In this document: in pieces, positions 3,411 through 6,647 of the stretch | Position numbering within the stretch: the stretch's first letter is position 1 | Layout of the letters: every line of letters starts with the position of its first letter | NCBI GenBank assembly: GCA_028277845.1 | Contig: JANQFL010000037.1 | Location: 1 to 37,042 of the forward strand | DNA: 37,042 nucleotides | Origin: Sneathiellales bacterium | GTDB lineage: Bacteria > Pseudomonadota > Alphaproteobacteria > JANQFL01 | Reading direction: 5' to 3' | Translations under genes and position numbers: made by a program | The notes under the pieces: generated by a model | Told to the model about the DNA's origin: nothing | What the model saw: only the letters and a program-made list of their open reading frames with translations | Databases searched by the model: none

Positions 3411-3661
3411 AGAGAAATCGAAGTTTCGGGATAAGCGGCCGTCCAAGCTCCAAGGCGTGCCGACATCAATGATGGGGACCATCCATGCAACTGACGCGTA
3501 TAGTCCGCGAAATCCTATCCTGGTACGAGAGCGACAATCGGGGCGCCACGGCCAATCTGGCGCGCATCCTGATGAACGGCAAACTAGGCGGAACAGGCAA
3601 GATGGTCATCCTGCCGGTCGACCAGAATTTCGAACAGGCGGCGGCTTTCAGTTACGCCCCC
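3382..3661 (+). repeat. Upstream copy of a ~280-bp duplication: fba promoter, leader and first ~59 codons
   Basis: This segment matches 4238-4519 at the true fba gene. Both copies carry TTGCATTGGC (3382 and 4238) about 100 bases before an ATG. Both have the leader GCCGACATCAAT..(A/T)GGGGACCATCC directly before the ATG (3485 and 4343). They share 125 of 141 bases over the first 47 codons by my hand alignment (about 89%). Similarity then fades and stops near 3661. Many differences are at third codon positions. Confidence 0.85.
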
Positions 3662-3712
3662 AGCAAACCATACACGGAGGAGGGCTATGAATCGGCAAAG
3701 CAAGCTGGATAA
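3485..3712 (+). pseudogene. Truncated class I fructose-bisphosphate aldolase fragment (fba')
   Basis: The 75-codon frame begins [15 protein letters not shown] and tracks the N-terminus of the intact Fba encoded at 4343 up to about residue 59. After that it runs into unrelated residues and a stop at 3710-3712. The intact enzyme has 309 residues, so the whole catalytic barrel, including the Schiff-base lysine region, is missing. It cannot be an aldolase. It could still be translated as a leader peptide, because it keeps the fba leader and start codon. Its last 26 bases overlap the start of the next gene, whose AGGAGG lies inside this frame, which would allow translational coupling. Confidence 0.85.
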
Positions 3713-4070
3713 CGACAATGCAATGCAAGATAAAGTTGGCATCCGAATGAATCTGAGCATTCCATCCAACCGCGGTAATGCAATCGTCGCGACTGGTATT
3801 GACGGAGTCCGCCCAAACATTCTGGAGCGGATAATCAAGCTACTAGAAACCGAAGAGGGGCACATTCATCGCTACCAGATTGCCAAGCTCAAGCACGAGA
3901 CTTCCGAATCAAGACAGAGTCGTAGATTTGCTTTTGTGTTCTCTATCGGCACCCTTGTCGTCACCGCCTATTGCGCAACAATTGATCAGCCTGTAGTCGC
4001 AACACTTGTATCTGGGAGTGGAGCAGCCATTTTGATGAACTTCGGAATCAACAGAATCAATAAACGCTGA
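3687..4070 (+). CDS. DUF2335-like small membrane protein
   Basis: A 127-residue protein of unknown function. It has an N-terminal cytoplasmic part, a charged helix PNILERIIKLLETEEGHIHR (residues 43-62), and two predicted membrane segments at about 81-98 and 102-120. This layout resembles the DUF2335 family of short predicted membrane proteins; I regard the match as probable, not certain. The start is supported by AGGAGG at 3676-3681. Base composition is clearly more AT-rich than the surrounding glycolytic genes and codons such as ATA, CTA and TTT are frequent, suggesting recent acquisition. It sits directly behind the truncated fba copy and probably uses the duplicated fba promoter and leader. 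Confidence 0.75.
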   Translation: MNRQSKLDNDNAMQDKVGIRMNLSIPSNRGNAIVATGIDGVRPNILERIIKLLETEEGHIHRYQIAKLKHETSESRQSRRFAFVFSIGTLVVTAYCATIDQPVVATLVSGSGAAILMNFGINRINKR

Positions 4071-4266: not shown

Positions 4267-4519
4267 AGCGCCATCTTTCTCTCGGGATTCACGTCGCACC
4301 GGCACCGCTTGAGTGCGCCGACATCAATAAAGGGGACCATCCATGAAACTGACGCGTAAAGTCCGCGAAATCCTGTCCTGGTACGAGGGCGACAACCCCG
4401 GCACCAAGGCCAACCTGGCGCGCATTCTGATGAACGGCAAGCTGGGCGGTTCGGGCAAGATGGTCATCCTGCCGGTCGACCAGGGCTTCGAGCATGGTCC
4501 CGCCCGCAGCTTCGCCCCC
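4238..4519 (+). repeat. Downstream copy of the fba 5'-end duplication
   Basis: This is the copy belonging to the intact fba gene: TTGCATTGGC at 4238, the leader at 4317-4342, and the first ~59 codons. It matches 3382-3661; the two start codons are 858 bases apart in the same orientation. Confidence 0.85.
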
Positions 4520-5272
4520 AATCCGGCCGCCTACGACCCGCACTATCATTTTCAACTGGCGCTGGACGCGGGACTCAATGCCTTCGCCACGCCGCTCGGC
4601 ATGATCGAAGCGGGCGCCGATACCTTCGCCGGCCAGGTACCGCTGATCCTCAAGGTCAACTCGTCCAATTCGCTGAACCGCGAAAAGGACGCGCCGACAC
4701 AGGCCATCACCGCCTCGGTCGACGACGCCCTGCGCCTCGGCTGCGCCGCCATCGGCTACACCATGTACCCCGGCTCCGATGCCGCGTTCGACATGATGGA
4801 AGACCTGCGCGAGCTGACCGCCGAAGCCAAGGCCGCCGGGCTGGCGGTTGTCGTGTGGTCCTACCCGCGCGGCGGCGATCTGTCGAAGGACGGCGAGACC
4901 GGCATGGACGTGGTCGCCTACGCCGCCCACATGGCCGCCTTGATGGGTGCCAACATCATCAAGGTCAAGCTGCCGTCCGATCACCTGGAGCAGGACGCCG
5001 CCGCCAAGGTCTACAAATCGGAAAAGATCAAGATCAAGTCCCAGGCGCAACGGGTCGAGCACGTCATGCAGTCCGTGTTCAACCAAAAGCGCGTCGTGGT
5101 GTTCTCCGGCGGCGCCAAGAAAGGCGCCGGCTCGGTCTATGACGACGCCCGCGCCATCCGCGACGGCGGCGGCAACGGTTCGATTATCGGGCGCAACACC
5201 TTCCAGCGCCCGCGCGAGGAAGCCCTGGACATGCTCGGTACCATCATCCGCATCTACCAGGGTAAGGAATAG
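4343..5272 (+). CDS. fba: Fructose-bisphosphate aldolase, class I (DhnA-type)
   Basis: This enzyme splits fructose 1,6-bisphosphate into glyceraldehyde 3-phosphate and dihydroxyacetone phosphate through a lysine Schiff base. The 309-residue protein is of the bacterial/archaeal DhnA-type class I family. It carries [12 protein letters not shown] (residues 41-52), the barrel strands around [10 protein letters not shown] and [10 protein letters not shown], and ANIIKVKLP (residues 203-211), in which Lys207 is the likely Schiff-base residue. The C-terminal phosphate-binding region is FSGGAKK followed by [19 protein letters not shown] precedes the ATG. The thiE-like gene starts 2 bp after the stop, so the two are co-transcribed. 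A truncated duplicate of the 5' end lies just upstream. Confidence 0.95.
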
Positions 5273-5940: not shown

Positions 5941-5962
5941 ATCCTGAATTACACACACTCCG

Positions 5963-5990
5963 TTGACGCACACTTGGATTTTGATGTACT
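5963..5990 (+). promoter_or_regulatory. Possible promoter of the orphan gene at 5998, overlapped by the palindrome
   Basis: TTGACG at 5963-5968 is followed after 16 bases by TGTACT (5985-5990), which matches TATAAT at four of six positions. The -10-like hexamer runs into the left edge of the 32-bp palindrome, as expected for a repressor-controlled promoter. Confidence 0.35.
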
Positions 5991-6019
5991 CTTTTAAATG
6001 AGTACTCATTTAAAAGAGT
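5988..6019. promoter_or_regulatory. Perfect 32-bp palindrome, candidate operator
   Basis: The left half ACTCTTTTAAATGAGT (5988-6003) is followed immediately by its exact reverse complement (6004-6019), with no mismatch and no spacer. Bases outside do not pair. There is no T-tract, so it is a poor terminator. It covers the upstream ATG (5998) of the following gene and touches the candidate -10 hexamer. A dimeric repressor or autoregulatory site is the most economical reading. A dyad in the mRNA that hides the start is the alternative. Confidence 0.6.
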
Positions 6020-6543
6020 TTCTGATGAGATTTCAATCAAAAATAGGCTTGGACTCTTCTAGGGCTGAACAACTGCGAGTCCTAGCCAAAAGAAACGGAT
6101 TTGGATCCGTGGCTGAGTTTGTGGAAGACTTTGTTGTCAAGCAATGGGGTAAAGAAATGATCCCTGGATGGACCATCACAAAATCATCAAATAAGCATTC
6201 AGGACAAGAGCTCGTCAAATTGACTATTCCTGAAGCGAAAATCGATGCGATGTTAACACGATCCAACGCACTAGAGATTTCGAAACCACTTCGCTACGCA
6301 AATACACTAAGAGATGAAAACTTAGAATTTATTGTCGACGATGATTTTAGTCCGAACAGAAAAGTCACTACTGAAAGCCCTACTGCAGGAATTCTTTCTG
6401 CAGAAGTCCGAGGAAAAGGAGTCGTGTTAAGTTTGTTCTATGAAGACTGTGGGCAGCGGTATAACTGCTCCCGCCCTATGACCTATTTGATGGCAAGCAA
6501 TCTTGGTCAAATGTTGTTGGATCAAGTGAAGTCAGAACCTTGA
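5998..6543 (+). CDS. Orphan hypothetical protein, low GC, likely acquired
   Basis: I recognise no family. The frame encodes 181 residues from ATG 5998, or 172 from ATG 6025. The second start is attractive because the first lies inside the 32-bp palindrome. The N-terminal ~50 residues (SRAEQLRVLAKRNGFGSVAEFVEDFV) look like a short helical unit reminiscent of ribbon-helix-helix or antitoxin-type N-termini, but this is only an impression. The remainder is mixed alpha/beta and has two cysteines in EDCGQRYNCSRP. No signal peptide or membrane segment is visible. The gene is markedly AT-richer than thiE and efp on either side, with rare codons such as ATA, AGA and TTA, which points to horizontal transfer. 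Confidence 0.75.
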   Translation: MSTHLKEFLMRFQSKIGLDSSRAEQLRVLAKRNGFGSVAEFVEDFVVKQWGKEMIPGWTITKSSNKHSGQELVKLTIPEAKIDAMLTRSNALEISKPLRYANTLRDENLEFIVDDDFSPNRKVTTESPTAGILSAEVRGKGVVLSLFYEDCGQRYNCSRPMTYLMASNLGQMLLDQVKSEP

Positions 6544-6647
6544 CAATTTTCTGTCAGAAATCCAGTTAGTCGATCATTGCAACACCAGGGCCGTGCTGGT
6601 AGGGTCCGCCCGCTTTTCGACACCCCACAACATCAGTAGTTAGACCG

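Follow-up and report, generated by a model that had tools for sequence, protein, structure and literature searches.

A perfect 32-bp palindrome as candidate operator of an orphan gene encoding a probable ribbon-helix-helix protein in a Sneathiellales bacterium

In a 37,042-nucleotide stretch of a Sneathiellales genome (contig JANQFL010000037.1 of assembly GCA_028277845.1; the whole stretch is referred to as the window), a perfect 32-bp palindrome composed of two abutting dyads covers the start of an orphan open reading frame of foreign base composition, and occurs at this single place in the genome. The palindrome probably acts as operator in an autorepression circuit made up of one horizontally acquired gene and the ribbon-helix-helix (RHH) protein that it would encode, a reading drawn from sequence features. 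Support comes from a predicted RHH fold and a promoter-like site, neither significant alone, and from the arrangement as a whole we infer binding, repression and the stoichiometry of the complex. New in this analysis, compared with a preliminary description of the same DNA, are the double-dyad anatomy, the probable RHH start of the protein and the promoter-like -10 element at the left edge of the palindrome. Feature coordinates are collected in Table 1.

Table 1. Positions of the palindrome, its internal symmetries and the associated gene features in the window
Feature	Position	Strand	Details
AT-rich insert separating thiE from the efp leader	5941–6570	.	right edge approximate
Best promoter-like site	5963–5990	+	TTGACG, 16 nt, extended TGaTGTACT; -10 shares 3 bases with the palindrome
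Perfect 32-bp palindrome, proposed operator	5988–6019	.	16-bp arms, no spacer
First 16-bp dyad unit, ACTCTTTTAAATGAGT	5988–6003	.	7 of 8 base pairs symmetric
Central 8-bp palindrome, GAGTACTC	6000–6007	.	where the two units meet
Second 16-bp dyad unit, ACTCATTTAAAAGAGT	6004–6019	.	reverse complement of the first unit
Possible ribosome-binding sequence, AAGAG	6014–6018	+	6 nt before ATG 6025, within the right arm
Orphan gene	6025–6543	+	172 codons when started at ATG 6025, the preferred start (181 from ATG 5998)
Probable ribbon-helix-helix DNA-binding domain	6025–6174	+	first 50 residues
C-terminal part	6175–6540	+	~120 residues; no family found

Results

The palindrome reads ACTCTTTTAAATGAGTACTCATTTAAAAGAGT, 32 letters identical to their own reverse complement, with two abutting arms of 16 bp each (ACTCTTTTAAATGAGT and ACTCATTTAAAAGAGT). 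The preliminary description had held that a perfect, spacer-free palindrome of this length exceeds chance, and this was borne out: in 80 simulated sequences of 37,042 bases, arms reached at most 11 bp in the 40 that kept the dinucleotides of the window and 10 bp in the 40 modelled on the AT-rich insert, so base composition and chance do not account for the palindrome. The runner-up among perfect spacer-free palindromes measured 18 bp in the window and 26 bp across 183 fetched loci (1.30 Mb; partly overlapping, eight of them containing the 5988–6019 palindrome itself).

Each arm is itself symmetric in seven of eight pairs, so the whole element amounts to two ACTCWTTTAAAWGAGT dyads placed end to end. 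In simulated local sequence a comparable 16-mer turned up at 72 of 199,984 positions (~3.6e-4), and such 16-mers are present at 23 of 37,027 window positions, counting the units within 5988–6019. Nested symmetry of this kind is as expected if two side-by-side protein dimers are to be accommodated and is not required by an RNA hairpin, which favors the operator reading. Because the site is palindromic, a minus-strand ATG at 6009 shares its first seven codons (MSTHLKE) with the plus-strand ATG at 5998; the minus-strand frame from ATG 6009 runs antisense through thiE, to 5254.

A DNA search of the 5.39-Mb genome (124 contigs, 98.47% complete) located no further copies of the palindrome, and a search for the 16-mer dyad with ≤2 mismatches returned only the two units of 5988–6019, each on both strands (reversed-pattern control, one forward and one reverse match). 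The half-site, for which a genome-wide count had been proposed in the preliminary description, is thus confined to this locus at ≤2 mismatches. The mobile-element target suggested there is unsupported by a single genomic occurrence, and a dispersed repeat or regulon site was rejected, both searches giving one locus only.

Outside the genome, the tandem motif with loosened positions had zero matches in the genome_contigs and viral_contigs collections. Viral stretches matching the single 16-mer unit numbered at least 120; among 120 examined, 78 were inside frames >300 bases and 42 were elsewhere, and for the 42 the only neighbors seen to recur were on contigs of near-identical appearance (one gene on four of them, another on two). 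As no independent recurring neighbors were seen, these viral matches were taken as chance occurrences in AT-rich DNA. One of the 42, on viral contig L091 (778–801), is a 24-bp perfect palindrome, the core of which fits the same 16-bp dyad. BLAST with the 32-mer matched 62 phage and 97 plasmid records, none of the matches listed covering ≥80% of it (top E values of 0.08 and 9 among the best 20 of the 62 and the best 20 of the 97, respectively).

The orphan gene occupies a 707-bp gap between the end of thiE (5940) and the start of efp (6648). By Pfam, the neighbors are thiE (thiamine monophosphate synthase), efp (elongation factor P), suhB (an inositol monophosphatase family protein) and fba, the name used here for a DeoC/LacD-type aldolase. 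The orphan has a GC content of 42% (window, 62.5%) and a third-position GC of 0.39 (neighbors, 0.82–0.87), and an open run as long as its reading frame arose in one of 2000 simulations of the insert. Ten frames ≥30 aa, the orphan included, touch 5941–6647; three overlap thiE (251, 72 and 45 aa), two extend into efp (59 and 133 aa) and the remaining four are short (32–77 aa).

Amongst 29 loci from other genomes, the fetched flank of 12 includes thiE upstream of efp in the same orientation, with a gap between aligned ends of 54–253 bp in nine and 1.15–1.28 kb in three, compared to 710 bp for the window on the same measure. A 347-codon Sel1-repeat gene fills the gap in two of the long-gap loci (L149, 264–1307; L157, 329–1372) and other frames are present in the third; the presence of the Sel1-repeat gene in two other genomes indicates that this intergenic site varies between lineages. 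When the window gap was locally aligned with eight of the nine close loci (L156 left out), the best alignment started in the expected efp leader (6566–6588) in four (0, 0, 1 and 12 of 100 shuffles scoring as well), at 6607 in a fifth at chance level (78 of 100 shuffles as good), and inside the orphan gene in three (3, 14 and 27 of 100 shuffles as good). Based on the gap lengths and alignments across these loci, ~600 bp of foreign-looking DNA, with approximate edges, was probably inserted directly after thiE.

Other foreign-looking features occur nearby. Positions 3459–3662 repeat the first part of the aldolase gene with 84% identity, 858 bp upstream of its intact counterpart at 4317–4520. A foreign-looking 127-codon gene separates the copies, and the arrangement resembles an insertion into the 5′ end of the aldolase gene that supplied a replacement 5′ end. 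This ORF (3687–4070) has lower GC and matches PHROG 3996 (membrane protein, moron category; E 2.5e-9), along with a sub-threshold DUF2335 match and a weak PADLOC match (E 0.011). A single housekeeping cluster thus has two lone foreign-looking genes, this ORF and the orphan, within 3 kb. The 16-bp repeat shared by 3419 and 5919 was considered as a common insertion site or mobile-element boundary and rejected as no more than chance, since a genome-wide search located it at three places on one strand and at zero on the opposite strand (reversed control, three and two).

Evidence for an RHH domain at the start of the protein, counted from ATG 6025, came from several lines. The N-terminal 45 residues, submitted alone and chosen after an RHH motif was spotted by eye, matched Pfam RHH_1 (PF01402) as their sole family (residues 8–35, E 0.15), with 12.5 bits, below the curated gathering score of 20.5 bits for this profile. 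A monomer model of the first 50 residues, with no strand assigned, has a low-confidence N-terminus followed by helices at residues 9–23 and 29–42 (15 and 14 residues; mean pLDDT of 83, 91 and 86 at residues 11–20, 21–30 and 31–40). Foldseek returned 53 matches for this model at E ≤ 10 (best E, 1.4; none at E ≤ 0.001), and 37 of the best 50 are RHH proteins, none significant alone; the 50 comprise 36 named RHH proteins, one putative regulator (1y9b) that we take to be RHH, 12 plant TCP domains and one cytochrome. VIA-align placed NikR, CopG and Arc at Z ~4 over 38–43 residues, a value rated as middling by the tool. Taken together, the RHH_1 match, the helix-helix model, the fold matches and the alignments make the RHH domain probable, if short of a formal profile assignment.

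Several searches with the protein were negative. The full-length sequence had no match in Pfam, PHROGs, NCBIfam or PADLOC, the C-terminal part matched no Pfam family, and the five matches of a whole-genome RHH_1 search (E up to 10) do not include the place of the orphan. PDB sequence searches had a best E of 0.26, and the full-length structure model was poor (mean pLDDT, 36.5). Protein relatives were confined to the own genome at E ≤ 0.001 in a relatives search covering 58 genomes and in a search of 385 genomes of the class, both sets including the own genome. Of 398 genomes of the phylum searched at E ≤ 1, 45 were listed, own included, and the best other match (E 0.00785, 29% over 73 residues, within a 1039-residue frame) was taken as noise, as were the remaining matches. 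Pattern matches in genome_contigs (32) and viral_contigs (7, 17 and 23) included none confirmed as a relative, and the reach of a single-protein query of these two collections is limited to close relatives. Plasmids and phages had a single match apiece, to unrelated genes (E 0.8 and 0.7). The collections searched thus yielded no homologue, and with it none that could reveal whether the gene and its palindrome move as a unit.

The best promoter-like site (Table 1) had the top score of the 100 bases scanned, and its score was equalled by 46 of 500 shuffles; a stricter promoter scan did not list it. The ‘-10-like hexamer’ earlier described as touching the palindrome is best taken as TGTACT (5985–5990), subject to that same score, and overlaps the palindrome. 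The dyad symmetry is present at the gene start; the promoter overlap depends on this consensus score.

ATG 5998 inside the palindrome and ATG 6025 as the next in-frame start were both found as earlier reported. Upstream of ATG 5998 no ribosome site was seen by eye, and a leaderless start there may occur, as the best promoter-like site would initiate transcription near 5997. ATG 6025 is the likelier start based on its sequence context, because AAGAG is positioned upstream of it and the predicted DNA-binding domain begins there. The palindrome would, therefore, probably serve as promoter and 5′ UTR together.

Discussion

In the proposed mechanism, the orphan protein would start at ATG 6025 and carry an N-terminal RHH domain, two dimers would bind the palindrome and shut their own promoter, and the C-terminal part may have an effector, oligomerization or other function. 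This operator reading is suggested by the position of the palindrome, which covers the -10 of the best site, the expected transcription start and the possible ribosome site, and the absence of a second site from the genome fits a strictly local circuit. The operator of an autoregulatory repressor, one of several roles first put forward for the palindrome, gains support as a candidate from the arm dyads, the position of the promoter-like site and the probable RHH domain. Counting against it, the RHH match appears with the N-terminal 45 residues only, while the full protein matches nothing; the fold matches short of significance, the omission of the locus from the whole-genome RHH_1 matches, the poor full-length model, the promoter score equalled by shuffles and the failure to find a homologue weigh in the same direction. 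A bolder version, with an unseen RHH family, a novel C-terminal domain, a one-gene mobile passenger and two dimers on the 32-bp double dyad controlling both transcription and, as the sequence is also part of the leader, access to the ribosome site, is quite unlikely.

Control could instead occur through RNA, with a hairpin of 14 bp and a 4-nt loop that holds the ribosome-binding sequence in its right arm and blocks ATG 6025 until opened. The stretch 5988–6050 folds at -16.4 kcal/mol compared to -8.31 (sd 2.41) for shuffles (z -3.36, 1 of 200 as good), a longer stretch (5970–6045) folds at -20.0, and AAGAG is within the right arm. Such a hairpin requires transcription to start upstream of 5988, but the best promoter-like site would initiate near 5997, inside the palindrome, from which 5997–6045 folds weakly (-6.1 kcal/mol); the symmetry internal to the arms would be superfluous and the sole Rfam match at E up to 1 is a plant microRNA model (20.4 against a 69-bit cut-off), leaving this explanation unlikely. 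It is similarly improbable that the site is an operator for another regulator, belonging to the host or to a lost donor element. The site resembles a protein-dimer site whichever protein is involved and the RHH assignment is weak, but the loosened tandem motif is unmatched in genome_contigs and viral_contigs, and a second site within two mismatches is absent from the 5.39-Mb genome, so that the host repressor once suggested is unlikely to have a regulon; a regulator with a looser site may be considered.

The palindrome may also be a mutational relic without present function, in which an inverted duplication or template-switch correction perfected a shorter quasi-palindrome. The arms are mutually reverse-complementary and individually near-palindromic, as the inverted duplication of one 16-bp dyad would yield. 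A perfect 16-bp match, however, demands a recent event or selection, the palindrome overlies a gene start and promoter-like site, and such an origin would be compatible with operator function; as a full explanation, a relic is very unlikely.

Among known systems, Arc, NikR and MobC each share part of the proposed arrangement. The Arc repressor of phage P22, with an RHH fold of ~50 residues (Z 4.0 over 38 residues, 24% identity), binds as paired dimers on neighboring half-sites, but hardly exceeds the RHH domain, whereas the orphan has ~120 extra residues and a proposed operator that is a perfect 32-bp palindrome. NikR has an N-terminal RHH domain followed by a larger C-terminal sensor domain, an organization similar to that proposed for the orphan, and NikR chains rank 1, 5 and 7 in the fold alignment. 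The halves of the NikR operator are far apart, PDB sequence searches with the orphan did not list NikR, and the C-terminal part of the orphan is without a Pfam family.

MobC of the IncU plasmid RA3 is of similar size, with 176 residues, a predicted RHH domain and palindrome-based repression of its own promoter, and is encoded in an operon shared with a relaxase beside oriT (PMC4175270). The orphan is alone between thiE and efp, and its palindrome is perfect, while that of MobC is imperfect and between -35 and -10; two perfected versions repressed far less (PMC4175270), and MobC to that extent counts against the operator reading. For type II antitoxins, which have several DNA-binding folds, the usual operator is a palindrome, perfect or imperfect, that overlaps the antitoxin’s own promoter (PMC4803016). 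No toxin or relaxase gene was recognized beside the orphan among the Pfam-named neighbors thiE and efp, and the orphan is without a PADLOC match.

The type of circuit proposed is ordinary and the gene unfamiliar; apart from the points that follow, the regulatory arrangement would be ordinary. An orphan missed by the searched family libraries gains a concrete hypothesis, that of a DNA-binding protein with its own target site, and the long perfect double dyad is a clean substrate for studying the side-by-side packing of RHH dimers. If the operator reading is right, the locus illustrates how a lone foreign gene may bring along a built-in limit on its own expression.
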